Shown piece after piece: positions 1 through 8,053 of a stretch of DNA of 51,812 nt; the first letter of the stretch is position 1; each line of letters starts with the position of its first letter. The position numbers and the translations under genes were made by a program. The stretch is from Fibrobacteria bacterium AD312. Its GTDB lineage: Bacteria > Fibrobacterota > Fibrobacteria > Fibrobacterales > Fibrobacteraceae. The DNA lies in the NCBI GenBank assembly GCA_001462345.1, contig LIUM01000014.1, forward strand, positions 1-51,812. Direction: 5' to 3'. Below the pieces are notes generated by a model. The model made no database searches. It had not been told where the DNA came from and saw only the letters and a list, made by a program, of their open reading frames with translations.

Positions 1-718
1 AACAGCCATTCGAGCTAAGGCGAATGATTGTTTTGATGGTTTTTGGAAAATCTTTCATCGTTTAAGAAATGACGGCCATGTATGGAATCATAAAAGAGTC
101 TATCGAGTGTATAAGGAGTTAAAGTTAAACAAGCGGGTTCCACTTCGCAAGCGCCTACCAGCTCGCGTAAAGAATCCGCTGATCACTCCAAGTCATGAGA
201 ATATAACATGGTCGATGGACTTCGTTACAGATGTGCTACAATGCAATCGGAAATTTCGTGTGCTTAATATTATTGACGATTTTGATCGTGTTATCGTTGG
301 TCAAAAAGTGGCTCCATCAATGCCAGCGGAACGAGTAATACGATTTTTGGAGGAAATTATCTGGGAAAAGGGTAAACCCAATAATATTAGATGCGACAAT
401 GGGCCTGAATTCATTTCACATAAATTTCAAGATTGGTGTAAAGGCAATGATATCAAAATAATGTACACGCAACCAGGTTGCCCAACACAGAATAGTTATA
501 TAGAACGATTTAATGGATCTTATCGAAGAGCCGTTTTAGATGCATATATTTTTAGAACTTTAGATGAGGTAAGGGAAATAACAGAAAAATGGATTGAGTA
601 TTATAATAATGAACGCCCACATGATGCGCTAAATAATAAAGCTCCCATGCAATATCGTTTGGCAAAAACAGGATAATTTTGTAAACTTCAGATCAGTCCT
701 AAGAATGGGTAGCTGACA
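1..718 (+). mobile_element. IS3-family insertion sequence, 3' part only
   Basis: The window opens inside an IS3-family element. The transposase reading frame is open from base 2 and stops at 676. About 40 bases later the sequence GGGTAGCTGACA (707-718) looks like the end of a terminal inverted repeat, because its complement TGTCAGCTACCC has the TGT...ACCC start common in this family. The left end and any orfA lie outside the window, so the inverted repeat and target duplication cannot be confirmed. It lies 55 bases from the distal end of the attC array. Confidence 0.75.
2..676 (+). CDS. IS3-family transposase OrfB (5' truncated by window edge)
   Basis: This is the catalytic DDE integrase-fold subunit of an IS3-family transposase, probably made as an OrfAB frameshift fusion. 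The frame is open back to base 2; upstream of the first ATG (107) it still reads WNHKRVYRVYKELKLNKR, the usual HTH_21 region, so the real start is outside the window. The catalytic triad is visible as WSMDF (first Asp), RCDNGPEF (second Asp) and SYIERFNG (Glu). The C-terminal end WIEYYNNERPH is typical of the rve_3 region. The pattern is closest to the IS407/IS2-like subgroups. The catalytic part looks intact, so the copy may be active if the missing left part is present. Confidence 0.9.
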   Translation, partial: TAIRAKANDCFDGFWKIFHRLRNDGHVWNHKRVYRVYKELKLNKRVPLRKRLPARVKNPLITPSHENITWSMDFVTDVLQCNRKFRVLNIIDDFDRVIVGQKVAPSMPAERVIRFLEEIIWEKGKPNNIRCDNGPEFISHKFQDWCKGNDIKIMYTQPGCPTQNSYIERFNGSYRRAVLDAYIFRTLDEVREITEKWIEYYNNERPHDALNNKAPMQYRLAKTG

Positions 719-772: not shown

Positions 773-853
773 ACCTAACACTTGCTTAACCTGCGGCGCA
801 GATTCCCGAGTTACCCTCCCGAACGCGCCGTCAGGTTCAAGCCGTTGTTAGGT
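773..853 (-). other. attC site 1 (81 bp)
   Basis: The outer cores are ACCTAAC (773-779) and GTTAGGT (847-853), which match the RYYYAAC/GTTRRRY consensus on both sides. The inner boxes pair as TTAACCTG-CGGCGC with GCGCCGTCAGGTTCAAGC; the right-hand arm carries the extra bases, which makes it the L'' side of a minus-strand site. The TAA stop of the upstream HEPN-like gene is inside the core. Confidence 0.9.
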
Positions 854-1552
854 TAATTCTTTTACCTTTTTTTGAAATACTATAGATAACGACTCAAGTA
901 TCTCATTTATAAAATTTTTAGTATTCTTCCAATGTAAAGTCAAATCATCAAAAACAGACCTATAATATTTTTTCCCAATTTCTGCCATTTGCACAGCAAG
1001 TTGATCAAGGTTATCTCTGCGCATAGCTTCCTCAGCAAAAGTAGCTACATGTGTTGATATCGCTTTTTCAAAATCATTCGTTAAATCAATTATTGAACGA
1101 GACTTTAATTGATTTTCATGTACAACTAAATTACGGTCCTCAGAATAATCGTTTATGTACAAAATCTTTCTGTATTTTTTAAATATCGCATTTAATTCAT
1201 CTGTATCAATGTTTTCATTTTGCATGACTGTTTCCATATTACAACTTTTTGTTGGTAACCCAAGCCTATAAACAACATTGATAAAATCAAGAACAATTTC
1301 GTTTAATGTAATAAATGTTATGTTATAATTTTTAATTACTATTCTTAAAAATTCTATAGACAAATTTGTTTTTATTGGTCCGTCCAATGAAATAGTTTTT
1401 AAAAGATAGTCAATCTCATTGAAAGTAATATCAAGTTTATTATTGACTGTCAAAACATTATTAATATATTTAGTTTCCCAAAAAAATTGTATTTTATCAT
1501 CCGGTATCGTACTTATTGTTTCAAGCATTTTACTATAAAAATAGTTCTTCAT
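848..1552 (-). CDS. Putative HEPN-domain protein (cassette gene)
   Basis: This 234-residue, helix-rich protein has no signal peptide or membrane segment. Residues 140-145 read RNLVVH, which fits the Rx4H motif (with Asn after Arg) that marks the active site of HEPN ribonucleases; helices lie on both sides. HEPN proteins are commonly toxins or defence effectors, but the assignment here rests on one motif. The ATG at 1552 is chosen because AGAGG lies 5 bases upstream; an upstream in-frame ATG at 1603 would read through the half attC site. The gene forms the last visible cassette: a half attC site precedes it and attC site 1 overlaps its stop. No second gene that could be an antidote is seen in the cassette. 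Confidence 0.6.
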   Translation of the reverse strand: MKNYFYSKMLETISTIPDDKIQFFWETKYINNVLTVNNKLDITFNEIDYLLKTISLDGPIKTNLSIEFLRIVIKNYNITFITLNEIVLDFINVVYRLGLPTKSCNMETVMQNENIDTDELNAIFKKYRKILYINDYSEDRNLVVHENQLKSRSIIDLTNDFEKAISTHVATFAEEAMRRDNLDQLAVQMAEIGKKYYRSVFDDLTLHWKNTKNFINEILESLSIVFQKKVKELT

Positions 1553-1578
1553 TTTTCCTCTCTTCGCCCGAAGGGTCA

Positions 1579-1600
1579 ATCCAACGTGAAGGTTAGCTGC
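1579..1600 (-). other. Half attC site (L'/R' arm only)
   Basis: On the minus strand GCAGCTAACC is followed by GTTGGAT (1579-1585), matching the right arm of attC site 2 (GCAGCTAACC...GTTAGCT). No matching left arm exists between here and the stop codon at 1630, which is only 29 bases away. The site therefore seems to have lost its R''/L'' half, fusing two neighbouring cassettes. Confidence 0.7.
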
Positions 1601-1629
1601 CAATTATTCATATTCTATTCATATTTTGA

Positions 1630-2169
1630 TTATTTGCATCTTAAATTTTCTATAAGTATTTTCTTCTTCTTTTTTCGTTCATCTAAATACACGAAACATA
1701 CATTTGTTCCTTCAAGAAATTTTTGCAAGTCATTTTTACTGAGAGATTTCGCTAACTTTTTTCTTTGTATTTCTCCTGGAGCAATATTAATTATTTCTAA
1801 ATCATCTTCTATTTTTACACAGCTGCCGACTATGCGTGCAGAATCTTCATCTTTTATTGGTGTGGAAAACAAAAACTGATTGCCTTTAAATACTTCTATT
1901 TTTGTATCTCTAACCCCAATCAATCTAGATGATTTATTATGAAAATCAATGACAATTTTAATGCATACATATTCAGGATTTTCGATTTTTTCAACGATAC
2001 GATAAGAACCTCCAACATCATATTTACCATACTCAATCTTCGAATCAATTAAATAACATTTTATTTTCCCCATTTTCGGAATCATCAACGTCATTATAGA
2101 GCCAACAAAAGCACCAACGACTGTACTTAAAATATTTTGCAACCAGTTTCCGTCCAAAAGTGTATGCAT
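1630..2169 (-). CDS. TM-anchored protein of unknown function (cassette gene)
   Basis: The 179-residue product has one hydrophobic segment at about residues 11-30 (LQNILSTVVGAFVGSIMTLM) followed by a soluble, beta-rich domain of about 145 residues, so it is probably anchored in the inner membrane with its soluble part in the cytoplasm or periplasm. The C-terminus is strongly basic (DERKKKKKILIENLRCK). The start has GAGGAC upstream with good spacing. I do not recognise a family. It is an integron cassette gene: attC site 2 lies beyond its start, while its own attC has been reduced to a half site, so it would now move only together with the HEPN-like gene. Confidence 0.7.
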   Translation of the reverse strand: MHTLLDGNWLQNILSTVVGAFVGSIMTLMIPKMGKIKCYLIDSKIEYGKYDVGGSYRIVEKIENPEYVCIKIVIDFHNKSSRLIGVRDTKIEVFKGNQFLFSTPIKDEDSARIVGSCVKIEDDLEIINIAPGEIQRKKLAKSLSKNDLQKFLEGTNVCFVYLDERKKKKKILIENLRCK

Positions 2170-2308
2170 AATTGAATCAGTCCTCGTTTATAAATTGAAT
2201 AGCATATTCAAATAGGATATAAATTCTTTTTAAAAAGAAATCACGGAATCCTAAAATATAAACGTTTAGATATTTTTTATAGCCCATTTTTTTACTTCTA
2301 TTATGTGC

Positions 2309-2393
2309 AGCTAACGTAAAGGTTAGCTGCGCTCGCTTCTAGAACCAGTTGTGCCGAGTTTCATGCGAGTGCCAGCTACACCGTTTGTTAGCC
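2309..2393 (-). other. attC site 2 (85 bp)
   Basis: Outer cores AGCTAAC (2309-2315) and GTTAGCC (2387-2393) enclose L-type boxes GGTTAGCTGCGCTCGC and GCGAGTGCCAGCTACACC, which pair with small bulges. About 73 of 85 bases match attC site 3, so the two sites are recent relatives. It lies 3 bases beyond the stop of the 54-residue gene. Confidence 0.9.
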
Positions 2394-2396
2394 CGT

Positions 2397-2561
2397 TTAT
2401 TTTTGTGATAAACCCCAAATGAAATTTTGTGTTTCACTTTGTATCCCTGAAAAATCCATCGACGTACATTCACTAAGATATGGTATCTCACCCCGTCTAA
2501 TATAAGGCAATATTCCCAATAACATCTTAGATAAAGATAATTGAACTAAAAGGCTTCTCAT
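2397..2561 (-). CDS. Small protein (54 aa), translationally coupled to the lipoprotein
   Basis: An ATG at 2561 overlaps the TGA stop of the lipoprotein gene (ATGA), and the frame runs 54 codons to a TAA at 2397, ending 3 bases before attC site 2. The product begins MRSLLVQLSLSKMLLGILPY and ends NFIWGLSQK; the first 20 residues are hydrophobic/amphipathic, with no charged acid. The exact fit between the lipoprotein stop and the attC core, plus the coupling overlap, argue that it is a real gene. No family is recognised. It may be a partner of the lipoprotein. Confidence 0.55.
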   Translation of the reverse strand: MRSLLVQLSLSKMLLGILPYIRRGEIPYLSECTSMDFSGIQSETQNFIWGLSQK

Positions 2562-3301
2562 TTCATTTTAACTACTTTTGAATTTTTAATATAGAACCAT
2601 GTATTCTCGGTTGTCTTCGCACCAAAAGAATTATTTCCTTCATACTTACATCTCACTACCCAAAATTCATCTGAAGGAATAACTTTACTCCATTCAAGAT
2701 ATTTAATTGAATTTTTATCTTTAGCGTTAGACTTTATATATTCTTCAACAATTTTTACGCTTCCATCAAAATCACTTTGTTCTGGCTTGGGCCCCACAGC
2801 ATTATTCGTCATTTCACGATTATTAAAATCATATTTACCACCATATTCTTCTAGGCTATAGAAACTCTTTTCTTTCTTTTTGAAAAAAGCCTTTAAGGCT
2901 TGAACACTAATATTTTTGTATTCTTCTTTGACGTTATATTTTGTTGAAATATCTTGAAGCATTCTTCTTCTCTTAGAATAGACTATTTTCTTTCCAATAT
3001 TATCACCATAAGATCCTTTAAGCTCATAATGAATTTCAATGTTATCGCAAGTATCGCTAAAAATAAATTTCTTCAACTCAGTCATTTCCGTTCTTTTCCC
3101 TTGCGACTCACCATTTACATTCATCTTCAGAGTTCCGAGATCCGCCTTACAATTCGTTTCTGGTGGAAATTCGCTCTGAACTTCAACTTTTTGTTCTTGC
3201 TGAATACCTTCGTTACTTTTAGAAGTTTGTTTAGGGACTTCTTTATTGCCACCGCAACCAGCAAGAATAATTACAGTGAGAATTAATGCTACTTTTTTCA
3301 T
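2558..3301 (-). CDS. Lipoprotein of unknown function (cassette gene)
   Basis: A 247-residue secreted lipoprotein: MKKVALILTVIILAGC is a signal peptide with lipobox LAGC and lipidated Cys16. After a Q/E/K-rich linker (about residues 17-45) comes a soluble domain with further Cys residues (NCKADLG, SDTCDN, VVRCKYEG) that could form disulphides. The C-terminal part (about 205-247) has alternating beta strands ending NTWFYIKNSKVVKMK. No known family is evident. It shares the cassette between attC sites 3 and 2 with the overlapping 54-residue gene. Confidence 0.8.
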   Translation of the reverse strand: MKKVALILTVIILAGCGGNKEVPKQTSKSNEGIQQEQKVEVQSEFPPETNCKADLGTLKMNVNGESQGKRTEMTELKKFIFSDTCDNIEIHYELKGSYGDNIGKKIVYSKRRRMLQDISTKYNVKEEYKNISVQALKAFFKKKEKSFYSLEEYGGKYDFNNREMTNNAVGPKPEQSDFDGSVKIVEEYIKSNAKDKNSIKYLEWSKVIPSDEFWVVRCKYEGNNSFGAKTTENTWFYIKNSKVVKMK

Positions 3302-3333
3302 CTACTTTACCTCAATTGGTTTTATTTTTATCG

Positions 3334-3418
3334 GGCTAACGTTTAGATTAGCTGCGCTCGCTTCTAGAGCCAGTTGTGTTGAGTTTCATCCGAGCGTCAG
3401 CTACATCGATTGTTAGCC
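3334..3418 (-). other. attC site 3 (85 bp)
   Basis: Cores GGCTAAC (3334-3340) and GTTAGCC (3412-3418) are perfect complements; inner boxes GATTAGCTGCGCTCGC and GAGCGTCAGCTACATC pair with bulged bases on the right arm. The TAA stop of the kinase gene (3413-3415) is inside the core. It is a close relative of attC site 2. Confidence 0.9.
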
Positions 3419-4441
3419 AAAGGTTGTATTCATTACTATGTTATTCATACAGGCAACGGCTTCAAGCTCGCAAATATTCTTTTTACATTTATCAGACTGC
3501 ATTCTCCCATTTTTTGAGAATTCTACAGAAATTACGCCACGTGCTGATCGCGATTTTTCCATGGTGTATGAATTGTGATTGTCTGCACCACTCCATTCAT
3601 CAGGAGAATTCTTATTCCACACGATGTTGTAACGAAGCTTATCTAGTGCCTGTCGCATTTCTAAAGCAGAATGAAAACGTTTAGTCAAAATTGGCGTACA
3701 TGCTTTTGATAGAATTCTCTTGATTTGCTGGGGAATATATGGCTGAAATCCGATTTTATTTAATAACGTTCCATTTGTGATGAGTTTTTGAGGATCCTTT
3801 TGGGAAACTACAATGCTATGCCAATCGCTCACTTGATTTACTAACCTAAATAATGTAATTCCAGAGGCATAAATATCTGTTTGAATTGTTGTTACATTTT
3901 TTGTGAGAGTTTCCGGTGCAAGATGCGAAACGTACCCTTTACCACTACCAATTTTCCCAGTTGGCACTGTCGCTAAACCAAAATCAGATAGCTTTGTCAC
4001 ACCACCAGAAACTAGAATATTTGCTGGCTTGATATCTCTATGTAAAAAGCCCTGGTTATGTGCGTATTCAAGCCCAGAAAGCATCGAACTAATATGACAT
4101 ATTGATTCCTTTACTGATAGAAATCGTTTTTCCATTTCGCTGCTTAAAGAACCGCCGTCTGCATATTCAAGATCTAAAACAACAACTTGTTTCCCATTTA
4201 ATTCCATTACATTTGCTTCATTAATCTGAACAATATTTTTATGCCGACACTTATCAAGAATATTAGCTTCTAGCAATGTGCTAAGTAATTCATCCGGCTT
4301 TTCTAGTTCAATTATTTTAATTGCTTTTCGCGCAGCAAGAGCCATATCTAAAGCTTCATACACATACCCAAACTGCCCATTACCAAGTTTTCTTAAAACT
4401 TTATATTTTCCTAATTGAAATGTCGTTGTCGGCAAATTCAT
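3413..4441 (-). CDS. Serine/threonine protein kinase (Hanks type; cassette gene)
   Basis: A 342-residue soluble eukaryotic-like kinase with all key motifs: glycine loop GNGQFGYVY (20-28), catalytic lysine in AIK (Lys42), catalytic loop HRDIKPAN (134-141), DFG (153-155) and APE (175-177). The kinase domain ends near residue 270; the last 70 or so residues have no recognisable domain, no TM segment and no PASTA repeats, unlike housekeeping PknB-type kinases. Its ATG overlaps the stop of the upstream RNase H-like gene (4438-4441), so the two are co-translated and probably act together. Together they fill one cassette between attC sites 4 and 3. The substrate is unknown. Confidence 0.92.
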   Translation of the reverse strand: MNLPTTTFQLGKYKVLRKLGNGQFGYVYEALDMALAARKAIKIIELEKPDELLSTLLEANILDKCRHKNIVQINEANVMELNGKQVVVLDLEYADGGSLSSEMEKRFLSVKESICHISSMLSGLEYAHNQGFLHRDIKPANILVSGGVTKLSDFGLATVPTGKIGSGKGYVSHLAPETLTKNVTTIQTDIYASGITLFRLVNQVSDWHSIVVSQKDPQKLITNGTLLNKIGFQPYIPQQIKRILSKACTPILTKRFHSALEMRQALDKLRYNIVWNKNSPDEWSGADNHNSYTMEKSRSARGVISVEFSKNGRMQSDKCKKNICELEAVACMNNIVMNTTFG

Positions 4442-4887
4442 AATTCAAGCCAACCTACAATAATTGAGTCTTTTTGAGTGATATCCCAATAAGGAGGATT
4501 TGTACCAAATATTTCATCGCATTTTTTATATAAATCAACACTTTTGTCCAAACCTAATTTTTTTTGTGTGAACTGCAGCTTATTATAGTCAACAACAGTA
4601 ATTCGCTTTTTCTTACATATCAAATTCAAAACACCTAGAGGCATGATCAAGCTGAACAATTGTTCTTTCTTTGGCCCCAGCGTAATTTTATAACACACCT
4701 TGTCTGGTTTATGCTTTTCAATTATGTCTAAGAAATTGGTTTCAAACCAATCCATTAATTCAGGCACATTGTCCAATGCTATGGTATTCAGTTTTTCTTT
4801 TAAAATTAAATTTGGCTTTATTTTTGTACCATCTAAAAGTGAATATCTTAATTGCCCTTTTTGCAACGCAATTCCAAGTATCTTCAT
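4438..4887 (-). CDS. RNase H/RuvC-fold-like protein (DUF3010-like; cassette gene)
   Basis: A 149-residue soluble protein. The N-terminus MKILGIALQKGQLRYSLLDG has the beta-strand/turn/strand look of an RNase H-like (RuvC/DUF3010-type) fold, and residues about 60-100 (KPDKVCYKITLGPKKEQLFS then a hydrophobic helix) resemble the following strand and helix of that fold. The usual first Asp of a RuvC active site is not present (GIALQ), so catalysis is doubtful. It is translationally coupled to the kinase through an ATGA overlap and precedes it in the cassette, so a kinase-target or kinase-regulator role is plausible. The fold assignment is tentative. Confidence 0.5.
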   Translation of the reverse strand: MKILGIALQKGQLRYSLLDGTKIKPNLILKEKLNTIALDNVPELMDWFETNFLDIIEKHKPDKVCYKITLGPKKEQLFSLIMPLGVLNLICKKKRITVVDYNKLQFTQKKLGLDKSVDLYKKCDEIFGTNPPYWDITQKDSIIVGWLEL

Positions 4888-4926
4888 TACTTTTCCTTTA
4901 ATAAAGTTTGCATGTATTCCTTCCTT

Positions 4927-5157
4927 TTGGCTAACGACAAGCTAACCTGCCGCGCAGTCTCCCGAGTTTCCTTTCAAGCGCCCCCGGACGAAACGGCTCC
5001 CGCAGACTATCAATCTACATTGTTTGCGGGGGCCGTGCAATGAGCCTCCAAAAACACTAAGCTTCATTGCCTCATTTCCGCAGCGTTTTTGGCGAAGGCG
5101 AATTGCCGGACGGAGGACGTGCCAATGTCGCGCGGTCTGGTTGAGCGTATGTTAGCC
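4927..5157 (-). other. attC site 4, enlarged (231 bp)
   Basis: Cores GGCTAAC (4927-4933) and GTTAGCC (5151-5157) and inner boxes CTAACCTGCCGCGC and GCGCGGTCTGGTTGAGCG pair as in site 1. The apical part is about 150 bases longer than in site 1 and holds two extra hairpins: 4993-5036 (ACGGC-CCCGCA against TGCGGGGGCCGT) and 5048-5092 (CCAAAAAC against GTTTTTGG). No internal R cores are present, so this is one site, not two. Confidence 0.75.
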
Positions 5158-5162
5158 ATTAA

Positions 5163-6242
5163 TTATTTAAACATCTCATTGATAATTACGTTCTTCATTC
5201 TTTTTAGTGATGCGGCAAAATCCGTAGCATTTATAAGAGCAGGCATTTCATCTCTGCGAATTCGAAGAAAAAGATTCTCCTTTCTTTTATTTTCAAAGGT
5301 TATATGATTGCTAAGCACAAACGTTTCAATATCATTTTTGGATTTATATAGAAGATTTATGATTTTAAGGATATATTCAAAAACGCCATTCCGGTCAATA
5401 TCAATATCTGAAGCCTTTAATGTATGGTATATATTTATCCAAGCCTCAGCTTTATCTTGATCAGCCAAAACATCTAAATAGACCAATCCATATTTTGTCT
5501 GCTTTTCATTTATAATGCTTTGCTCTTTTATCCCTCTAGTAAAAAGATAATTCGCAAGCATTTTAAATTCTTCTTTGCGATTAATTTTTGATTCATTAAC
5601 CACATCTTTTGCAAATGAGTTCTTGACTTGTAGCTTTTGCATTTCTGTCGTGATAGGAATAAAAGTTATTATCTTCAATAACACATAAATTATAAGGAAC
5701 GAAAGCAAATAAACAATTGTGCTATTGACATCTAAAGATCCAAGCCCCTTCTTGAAACCAATAAATATTGGATACCCCAATATTATAAAGAAACCTATCA
5801 ATATTCTTGTTTGTGTAAATAGGCCCAAATTTTTAATATATCGAAAATATGCTCTAATTCTTCCATATTTTGCAGGAACCATCTTTGTAGAAAAAATTGT
5901 ATGAATCTCGCCACGACTCCGATAGTAATCCAGTCTCACTTTTAAAAATATCACACAGAATCCAAAAACAAGAACAGCATCAAGTCTATTAAAATAAGGC
6001 CGCTGACCTTCCGCATCAGGGCCATTCAAATACAACGCCTTCATCGCAATAACAAAACAAAATCCTAAAGGAACCAAAATCAACTTTGAATACTCAGTGT
6101 AAACATCAATGAAAAGGTCCTTTGCGTATTCATAAGTTGTCGTTACAGCTTGATGGGCATATGTTATAGTAGCAAACGTCAGGCCAAAAAGAACACCCGA
6201 TATCTCAAGTACCATTTTTAAAAATTCAGTAGTAGTATTCAT
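5163..6242 (-). CDS. Multi-pass membrane protein of unknown function (cassette gene)
   Basis: A 359-residue protein with about five hydrophobic segments in its first 200 residues (for example LEISGVLFGLTFATITYA, LILVPLGFCFVIAMKAL, VLVFGFCVIFLK, ILIGFFIILGYPIFIGF, YLLSFLIIYVLLKIITFIP), followed by a soluble, helical, charged domain of about 160 residues, probably cytoplasmic. It is the only gene in the cassette between attC sites 5 and 4. No family is recognised. A membrane module with a soluble sensor or effector tail is a common layout in anti-phage proteins, but no motif seen here supports that directly. Confidence 0.8.
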   Translation of the reverse strand: MNTTTEFLKMVLEISGVLFGLTFATITYAHQAVTTTYEYAKDLFIDVYTEYSKLILVPLGFCFVIAMKALYLNGPDAEGQRPYFNRLDAVLVFGFCVIFLKVRLDYYRSRGEIHTIFSTKMVPAKYGRIRAYFRYIKNLGLFTQTRILIGFFIILGYPIFIGFKKGLGSLDVNSTIVYLLSFLIIYVLLKIITFIPITTEMQKLQVKNSFAKDVVNESKINRKEEFKMLANYLFTRGIKEQSIINEKQTKYGLVYLDVLADQDKAEAWINIYHTLKASDIDIDRNGVFEYILKIINLLYKSKNDIETFVLSNHITFENKRKENLFLRIRRDEMPALINATDFAASLKRMKNVIINEMFK

Positions 6243-6254
6243 ATTCCTTTATAT

Positions 6255-6545
6255 GGCTAACGTCGAGGTTACCCGCCCCGCATCAGGGCAACAAGGAGGG
6301 AGCCCAGGCGATTTGGTTTTCAGTTCGTATGTATGAGAAGATAGTCTAAATCGAACTGGAAACCAAGCAATGAGGTTCGAGCGACTTAGGGAGCAGGAGC
6401 TTTCCAGGACGCCCGAAGGGTGGCATGGAAACCCCTGCGAACTTAGGAGCGGCTTTTGTGCGAAGCACAAAACCGAAACCGAATTGCCGCCTGGAGCGAA
6501 CGACCTACGAGATGACCGCGGGGTCGGGTACACCGTTTGTTAGAT
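6255..6545 (-). other. attC site 5, enlarged and branched (291 bp)
   Basis: Cores GGCTAAC (6255-6261) and GTTAGAT (6539-6545) with paired arms GGTTACCCGCCCCG and CGGGGTCGGGTACACC close the site. Inside, CCAGGCG (6304-6310) pairs with CGCCTGG (6488-6494), and three hairpins lie within that stem: 6313-6366, 6393-6438 and 6450-6475. The TGA stop of the HNH gene touches the core. It is far longer than typical attC sites. Confidence 0.75.
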
Positions 6546-8053
6546 CATGATAAACATTTGCTCAATTCTCTTAAAATTCTTTGCATTTTAATTCTTTTAT
6601 TGTTTTCGTATAAAGTATCAGGAACGAGTGTGTAACAGCCTCTGATTTTAACATTATCTCCAAATTCTACATCGATCTCTATCCTTTCATCTTTTTTTAG
6701 ATACGCCTCACCATAATCTAATCCATTTACCTCCATAGATTTGATATGGGTGAGTTCTTCTTCTAGTTCGCAAATTTCAAGCTTAATGATATTAAATGGA
6801 ATAGCGATCTCAAACAGCTGATCCTCGTTTGGCCCATTACCAAATAATTCACCAAAATATTCTTTTCCCCCACCTTTGTTAATTCCAAAAATATGTGGAC
6901 ATGATCCACACATCCATGAACGATCAATTCTAATAGCCTGACTAAAAATTGGAGACCTTACAGATTGCTCTTGCTTTAGCCCTGCATTTTTAACTTGAAT
7001 ACTCTTTATAAATGATAATTCGCCAATGTATAATCCGTTATCACCAAGATCATCATCACATAAATCCATATATTGGCTTTCGCCAGATTTTACTGTATGA
7101 AAATCAACCATTGACTTTGATTTGCCTCTTAGCTCTAGATGTTTCATGTACAAACCAATTGGAATCAACAATAATTCTCCTGGTTCAATATCTAGATTTG
7201 GCAATTGAATTGTTTTAACAACATCTGAGAGTTCAAAGCCTGAAATCCGATTCTTTGGAATACACACATTGTATTCTGATATTGAAATCGGAGCATTGCA
7301 ATTATTTTGAATTGCACAAAATACAAATGAAACTTCTGGGATTTCATATCGTTCGTAATTTGATTCATCTCCGCACCCATATTCATTAAATCTGGCCAGA
7401 ATTAGGTCATGGCCACCATAAGCAACAATCTGTTGAGTAATCGCTGAAAACGGCGCTACGCTTGTTCTGATTTCTGCATCATCTAGTATTCTAGAATAAT
7501 ATTTTTGACCCCATTCCTCTTTCTCAATGAGCTTATTTCCAAACAATCCTTTATATTCTTCAAAAGAAGAATATTGCTGAATTGGCAACTCACCTTTATT
7601 TTCTGAATGCGCCATTTCATAATAATATTGCATATATGCCAATACATTATTATTAACAAGCTTTGCTCCTTCATAAGGAAATTGGCTTAGGTCGCCAGCA
7701 AACAATTCGCCAATTACATCTAGGTTTTCCGTTTTTAGATAGAATTGAGAAACAGCTGAATCATCATCTAGGATTCTATTATTTTTAATGAAAGCATAGT
7801 GGTTATCCCGATGTTTCCGAAGCTCACTCGGACTAAATTTCGACCCTTTAGGATGTCTAGGATTATAATGGCCGGCTCTTGAATGGCATTCCATGCATAA
7901 TGGTATCGCATTATCAAAGTCATCAGCCCCTCCATCTGCTTTCTGAATGATATGATGAACTTCTATTTCTACCGATTTAAATTTCGTACAAACACAACAT
8001 CTTCGTCCAGAAGCGACAAGGGCCTCTTCCTTCACATTATTTGGAAATCCCAT
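6545..8053 (-). CDS. HNH-domain protein with large uncharacterised C-terminal region (cassette gene)
   Basis: A 502-residue soluble protein. Residues 16-60 form an HNH nuclease module: CxxC at 19-22, VHHI (His33-His34), DDFDNAIPLC and a second CxxC at 53-56, giving the two zinc knuckles around the HNH core. The rest (about 90-500) is not a known family to me; it includes a Cys-rich stretch WMCGSCPHIFG near residue 390 and a beta-rich C-terminus. It could be a DNA-targeting nuclease with a sensor or specificity domain. It is the first cassette gene next to the promoter-like sequence at 8089-8117, so it should be the best expressed of the array. Confidence 0.85.
   Translation of the reverse strand: MGFPNNVKEEALVASGRRCCVCTKFKSVEIEVHHIIQKADGGADDFDNAIPLCMECHSRAGHYNPRHPKGSKFSPSELRKHRDNHYAFIKNNRILDDDSAVSQFYLKTENLDVIGELFAGDLSQFPYEGAKLVNNNVLAYMQYYYEMAHSENKGELPIQQYSSFEEYKGLFGNKLIEKEEWGQKYYSRILDDAEIRTSVAPFSAITQQIVAYGGHDLILARFNEYGCGDESNYERYEIPEVSFVFCAIQNNCNAPISISEYNVCIPKNRISGFELSDVVKTIQLPNLDIEPGELLLIPIGLYMKHLELRGKSKSMVDFHTVKSGESQYMDLCDDDLGDNGLYIGELSFIKSIQVKNAGLKQEQSVRSPIFSQAIRIDRSWMCGSCPHIFGINKGGGKEYFGELFGNGPNEDQLFEIAIPFNIIKLEICELEEELTHIKSMEVNGLDYGEAYLKKDERIEIDVEFGDNVKIRGCYTLVPDTLYENNKRIKMQRILRELSKCLS

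Follow-up and report, generated by a model that had tools for sequence, protein, structure and literature searches.

A predicted pseudo-RuvC partner of a 933W Stk-like kinase in an integron cassette: a candidate two-gene anti-phage switch

What does a complete protein kinase do in a bacterial integron cassette, and what is the role of the small gene that overlaps its start? Both genes lie in a contig of Fibrobacteria bacterium AD312, in a stretch of 51,812 nucleotides that we analyzed as a whole and call the window. A first reading of the letters (the sequence-only reading) had proposed that the two genes form a candidate defence system. The features of the window and of the host genome that bear on this proposal are the following.

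107-676, plus strand: IS3-type transposase OrfB (domains rve and rve_3), located where the cassette array ends
848-1603, minus strand: cassette gene, 251-aa protein of no clear family
1630-2169, minus strand: cassette gene, 179-aa apparent membrane protein
2558-3301, minus strand: cassette gene, 247-aa putative lipoprotein
~3335-3418 (84 bases), minus strand: attC-like site with GGCTAAC...GTTAGC ends that closes the pair cassette and holds the kinase stop codon
3413..4441, minus strand: second gene of the pair, soluble kinase of the 933W-Stk / type I RM-linked clade, 342 aa
4438..4441, minus strand: ATGA shared by the stop of the small gene and the start of the kinase
4438..4887, minus strand: first gene of the pair (the small gene), predicted pseudo-RuvC (RNase H fold), 149 aa, ATG start
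~4929-5158, minus strand: long attC-like site with GGCTAAC...GTTAGCC ends, on the promoter side of the pair and part of the preceding cassette
5163-6242, minus strand: cassette gene, 359-aa apparent membrane protein
6545-8053, minus strand: cassette with a 502-aa HNH endonuclease (Pfam HNH, 1.5e-10)
C11:94342-95028 and C43:31049-31279, host genome: fragmentary or broken integrase matches, one with an internal stop

The sequence-only reading had placed two genes with a 4-base overlap at 3413-4887, which is exact. The overlap can be read directly in the sequence as ATGA, and the junction reads ...GAATTATGAATTTG... Such an overlap suggests that small gene and kinase are translationally coupled, and the overlaps in relatives are near-identical. 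A stretch that resembles a ribosome site, AAAGGA, lies just 5' of the small-gene ATG.

The two genes fill one integron cassette, as had also been claimed. The attC-like sites on either side both fold as cruciforms: the site at ~3335-3418 on the plus strand (z=-3.2), the site at ~4929-5158 with paired ends (z=-3.2). The former shares 87% identity with another site, at 2310-2393. Further attC-like sites lie at ~772-857 (z=-5.9) and ~6255-6546 (z=-6.2); folding was tested on five sites. Two of the sites, 4929-5158 and 6255-6546, are unusually long (230-290 bases) and contain strong internal hairpins, for example GCTCCCGCAGAC...GTTTGCGGGGGC.

All cassette genes from 848 to 8053 are on the minus strand. 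Four of their proteins (848-1603, 1630-2169, 2558-3301 and 5163-6242) have no Pfam match above the cut-off. The HNH protein, two places upstream of the pair, has weak PADLOC matches to type IV restriction and to DpdF. This could possibly be another defence cassette. The host genome (2.83 Mb) carries 24 matches to the "Fib_succ_major" family TIGR02145, from which a Fibrobacterota relative would be deduced; of 14 control genomes, one (a Bacteroides) has the family as well. In the host genome matches to an integron integrase are either below the TIGR02249 cut-off or broken; the best reaches 140 of 265 bits and has an internal stop. As far as the available contigs show, the cassette cluster thus looks integrase-less. 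Because the integrase matches are only fragmentary, the pair cassette may be an old passenger.

Residues 13-257 of the kinase form a complete domain of the Hanks type (Pfam Pkinase, E=1.2e-40), and the protein shows the motifs GNGQFG at residue 20, AIK at 40, HRDIKPAN at 134, DFG at 153, APE at 175 and DIY at 189. Hydropathy over 19 residues is at most 1.05, hence there is no membrane helix. PASTA domains are absent according to Pfam, and the NCBIfam PASTA kinase model gives 124 bits with a cut-off of 450. Pfam, motifs and hydropathy therefore agree with the earlier description of a kinase that has all catalytic motifs but neither membrane nor PASTA parts.

Less can be read from the small protein directly. 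It matches no Pfam family and only weakly resembles the NCBIfam RuvC model (E=0.0014). DUF3010 (PF11215), tried as its identity, gave no match at E up to 1, and the family scan of its own genome was empty. An AlphaFold2 (AF2) model built from 37 homologues, however, reaches a pLDDT of 87.2 and a pTM of 0.84 (a model without alignment, pLDDT 54, was set aside). In a Foldseek search of the PDB, the top 12 matches to this model are all RuvC, from Deinococcus, E. coli, Thermus and Pseudomonas (TMq 0.73-0.82, E 1e-10 to 6e-8). The profile of the small-protein family also matches Deinococcus RuvC at 3.5e-7. The small protein is thus predicted to fold as RuvC. The RNase H/RuvC-like look noticed earlier is borne out by model, structure search and profile, and the structure prediction that had been suggested for the 149-residue protein does not yield a different fold.

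The active site tells another story than the fold. The catalytic D-E-D-D of RuvC, present in 14 of 14 RuvC proteins of the host phylum in our alignment, reads A-K-T-D in the small protein of the window. In relatives linked to RM operons it reads R-K-K-D (18/18). Phage-type relatives (n=18) carry R, R or K, mostly E, and E; they keep at most two acids and never the first two. Hence in all 36 relatives the first two catalytic acids are replaced by R and by R or K, and in the window by A and K. The window protein also lacks a Glu that is conserved in the relatives and has Ala in place of their conserved first Arg. The first catalytic Asp is missing, as the sequence-only reading had stated, and Ala stands there; this was an understatement, since two of the other three acids are gone as well. 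The label of an RNase H-like enzyme did not hold up, and with most of the catalytic set lost the protein is better called a pseudo-enzyme. By its residues it is a pseudo-resolvase, predicted to have kept the fold and lost the cutting. In nearly all members it is basic residues that replace the first two positions of the acidic metal site, and we infer that the resulting basic pocket possibly holds a phosphate or an acidic partner.

Is the pair unique to this cassette? The small protein alone as a query found no relatives in the genome, plasmid, phage and viral collections, only its own genome, because it is too divergent. Single-sequence matches within the phylum (E 0.006-0.9) were noise. Matches of an 8-row small-protein profile in the host family were RuvC rather than more copies of the pair; the ones that were looked at have IDPG and all catalytic residues. 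The productive route led over the plasmid matches of the kinase and an inspection of the genes next to them. The two best, from Methylocystis parvus and Novosphingobium resinovorum, both lie inside type I restriction operons, and the gene immediately before each encodes a "hypothetical protein" (153-155 aa) that starts with MK[IV]LGFR. In BLASTP the window small protein aligns with these upstream proteins end to end, including a shared ...YW...D[AS]I...W end (3e-7 for Novosphingobium, 5e-4 for the other). Other matches of the kinase were Stk genes in immunity regions like that of phage 933W, each preceded by a gene of 152-154 aa, and one more was a pair in an SPbeta-like Bacillus phage. The phage small protein belongs to phrog_3875 of PHROGs, a "RuvC-like Holliday junction resolvase" (E=7.8e-91). 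Since the members seen lack the first two catalytic acids, we question this label; on these residues, the name probably misleads automatic phage annotation. The Stk pair has matches in 224 of 5,426 complete E. coli genomes, and in 222 of these the match covers most of the pair.

The relationship of the window pair to these genes can be tested with profiles from which the window was left out. Its small protein scores 34.6 bits over the full length (E 2.6e-9), while 500 shuffles score at most 5.1. Its kinase scores 222 bits, while 19 control kinases, including PknB-like kinases of the host family, score at most 159. The relationship is therefore not chance, even though the identity of the small protein to its relatives is only ~22%. 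A 7-row alignment had suggested a shared C-terminal tail of the kinases, but against an HMM of this tail the window kinase scores 3.0 bits, no better than shuffles (up to 3.5).

In a maximum-likelihood tree of 43 pair kinases and 19 controls, the window, RM and phage kinases come together on a 99/95 branch. The RM group and the phage group are each supported at 100/100. The window kinase stands apart from the PknB-like kinases of the host family and, with its long branch, makes up a third deep lineage, whose depth within the clade is unsure. At residues 134-136, kinases of RM-type and phage-type pairs are of the non-RD kind and read HND or HFD; the window kinase has the canonical HRD. From profiles and tree, membership of the window pair in a two-gene family of 933W-Stk-like kinases and pseudo-RuvC proteins appears well supported. 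The sequence-only reading had not recognized the pairing and took it to be new. Relatives do exist, in a family that includes 933W Stk, published as an abortive-infection kinase, but we found no description of the partner.

The pairing itself is strict. Scanning one genome per prokaryote species with three aligned small proteins yielded 18 loci, in all of which (18/18) the kinase lies directly 3' of the small gene. It also adjoins the small gene in 48 of 48 loci on viral contigs. Seen from the small gene, a kinase is the neighbour in 66/66 cases, a count of loci that includes near-identical copies and not of independent events. The reciprocal scan with the kinase gave 66 loci as well, of which three were other kinases (at most 61 bits vs at least 243) and one starts at a contig edge. 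In the remaining 62 assessable loci, again counted with near-identical copies, the small gene always adjoins the kinase (62/62). Four of these escaped automatic detection and were read by hand: three frameshifted kinases (L165, L168 and L208) and one over-long ORF call (L195). The coupled loci span Pseudomonadota, Bacillus phages and the window genome.

The surroundings of the pair differ between lineages. In 15 of the 18 genome loci the pair is part of a type I RM operon, where hsdS precedes and hsdR follows it. The order, which varies slightly, is hsdS-like, hsdM, (GIY-YIG), hsdS, small gene, kinase, hsdR and SprT. Loci of this kind belong to the following series:

L047, L048, L075-L092: type I RM operons with GIY-YIG nuclease, pseudo-RuvC, kinase and SprT-type protease

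The accessory gene prrC occupies the same slot inside the type I RM operon EcoprrI. In two loci (L086 and L088), kinase and hsdR are separated by about 1 kb of extra sequence. Three of the 18 genome loci are without RM genes in the flank. Read by eye, one pair (L084, 220-2074) adjoins an apparent cytosine methyltransferase and a Vsr-type nuclease, and another (L091, 8535-8927) lies beside guaA, followed by a DUF4917-like ORF. The 48 loci of the phage lineage show no linkage to RM operons. The search near defence genes that had been proposed for the pair thus led to prophages, SPbeta-like phages and type I restriction operons, and to no housekeeping unit.

What, then, could the pair do? The kinase of phage 933W offers a lead. 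As reported in PMC6356687 and PMC3681748 where they cite Friedman 2011, Stk is activated by infection with phage HK97 and excludes it; without infection it is reported to show little activity (PMC3681748). Lysogens of Stx phages express stk from pRM (PMC3430580). Stk kinship and the type I RM and prophage contexts of the relatives support the earlier idea of a candidate defence system; for the window copy itself, phage resistance is a prediction.

We propose that the cassette is a two-gene anti-phage switch, in which the pseudo-RuvC senses and the kinase blocks the infected cell (abortive infection). We consider this proposal likely, with considerable room for doubt. An obligate RuvC-shaped partner that is encoded just 5' of the kinase is a natural candidate for sensing the trigger or for silencing. 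Unable to cut, it would act as a sensor or regulatory subunit. Its shape could bind branched DNA (replication or recombination intermediates), a RuvC-like resolvase of the phage or another phage recombination protein. Phage RuvC-like resolvases have been linked to abortive infection through AbiD1 (PMC3710099), which makes it plausible that the partner mimics a resolvase and acts as bait, or binds junctions. Coupled expression would set its ratio to the kinase, and the pseudo-RuvC would hold the kinase silent. During infection the trigger would bind, and the released kinase would phosphorylate itself and host or phage proteins. The infected cell would then no longer support phage growth. Sensing, silencing, target and the activity of the window copy are all parts that we infer.

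In Alphaproteobacteria the embedded pair may also act as a backup once a phage has overcome restriction, because it sits between hsdS and hsdR, in the slot of PrrC in EcoprrI. A bolder generalization, which we offer tentatively and would not bet on, is that the RuvC fold with its basic pocket generally senses the junctions formed when phages recombine or replicate, or phage resolvases, and switches a kinase. The same module would then have been built into prophages, integron cassettes and type I RM operons, in the last as a backup to restriction, and exclusion by 933W Stk would really be the work of two proteins.

Other readings of the same facts have to be weighed against the switch. PrrC is a guard that the RM enzyme keeps inactive until a phage inhibitor of restriction sets it free (PMC2610378, PMC12707154). 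By analogy, the pair might chiefly sense that a type I restriction enzyme is inhibited and then shut the cell down, with the window copy acting in trans for a restriction enzyme of the host. The position of 15 of 18 genome relatives in the PrrC slot speaks for such a role, and the host genome does contain three HsdR genes. But this would leave the 48 phage loci, three of the 18 genome relatives and, judged by the ORFs of the window, the window pair itself without an RM operon to guard. The best-studied member, Stk, is moreover triggered by HK97, with no RM system reported. We therefore regard guarding of restriction as an unlikely main function. The arrangement of the genes would also suit an addiction module, in which the free kinase is toxic, the small protein merely neutralizes it, and cassettes and prophages are stabilized with no phage trigger involved. 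The small gene comes first, the 4-bp overlap couples the two, the pairing is strict and the contexts are mobile. However, a RuvC fold is no usual antitoxin, the fixed residence in RM operons suggests a shared task, and Stk, reported to be little active until HK97 infects (PMC3681748), does have a trigger. A toxin-antitoxin system consequently seems improbable to us.

Two further readings concern only one of the partners. The small protein could be a working RuvC-like nuclease that is switched by phosphorylation; its fold is clear, and PHROGs names the phage version a resolvase. The A-K-T-D of the window, the invariant R-K-K-D of the RM type and the phage proteins, none of which has the first two acids, make this very hard to believe. 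The kinase, in turn, could be an ordinary signalling kinase with a chance neighbour, as kinases of such a fold are common in the family of the host. This we judge the least credible reading: the genes are coupled in every locus of both scans, the kinase does not group with the PknB-like kinases of the host family, and the pair was not found in 167 other genomes of the phylum. The two-gene switch remains the reading that we prefer.

For 933W Stk, both the type of kinase and the exclusion of phage have been described before. In the open-access literature, with subscription papers outside our search, we did not find descriptions of the coupled pseudo-RuvC partner, of its catalytic loss or of the RM-embedded and integron lineages. 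The same literature yielded no paper that joins a RuvC-like protein, a kinase and type I RM, and no function for the small protein of any relative. Stk is described in the cited papers as a phage-activated kinase, and no sensor subunit is mentioned there; the dead RuvC partner would be a concrete candidate for one. If so, the second part of a phage-defence switch has largely been overlooked. The analysis also shows that type I restriction operons can harbour a kinase module, in a manner that recalls PrrC.

How does the pair compare with named systems? PADLOC matches of the window kinase to the defence-annotated kinases PD-T4-6 and MAD6 proved non-specific and were rejected. The window kinase scores 140 bits against PD-T4-6, and four controls (three from the host phylum, one plasmid) score ~257-320 bits. 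Against MADS6 of NCBIfam it scores 115 bits with a cut-off of 460, and no MAD-family PADLOC match occurs in the neighbouring cassettes. The match is that of a generic kinase domain, and controls score up to about twice as high. RuvC shares fold (TM ~0.8) and length with the small protein, which in contrast lacks the D-E-D-D set and has an obligate kinase partner.

PrrC of EcoprrI is likewise an accessory shut-down gene in a type I RM operon and shares its slot with the RM-type pairs. Yet it is an anticodon nuclease that works with an ABC ATPase and has no homology to kinase and pseudo-RuvC, and the window pair lies outside any RM operon. Closer are the RM-embedded pairs of Methylocystis, Novosphingobium, Defluviimonas, Sinorhizobium and others, which have the gene order and overlap of the window. 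The small protein of the window is closest to theirs (30% identity to Novosphingobium). These pairs are flanked by hsdS and hsdR, and a gene for a SprT-type protease follows downstream, whereas the window pair stands alone.

The named system to compare is the module of 933W Stk and its upstream gene (PHROG 2361 and PHROG 3875). Published tests of it, as cited in the sources above, concern the kinase alone. It differs from the window pair in sequence (~27% identity for the kinase and ~12% for the partner in the alignments used), in its HFD motif where the window has HRD, and in its place in a prophage immunity region instead of an integron cassette. Nevertheless, both share gene order and overlap, both reside on mobile elements, and both combine a soluble kinase of ~350 aa with a partner of ~150 aa that has a predicted RuvC fold and is without the first two catalytic acids.
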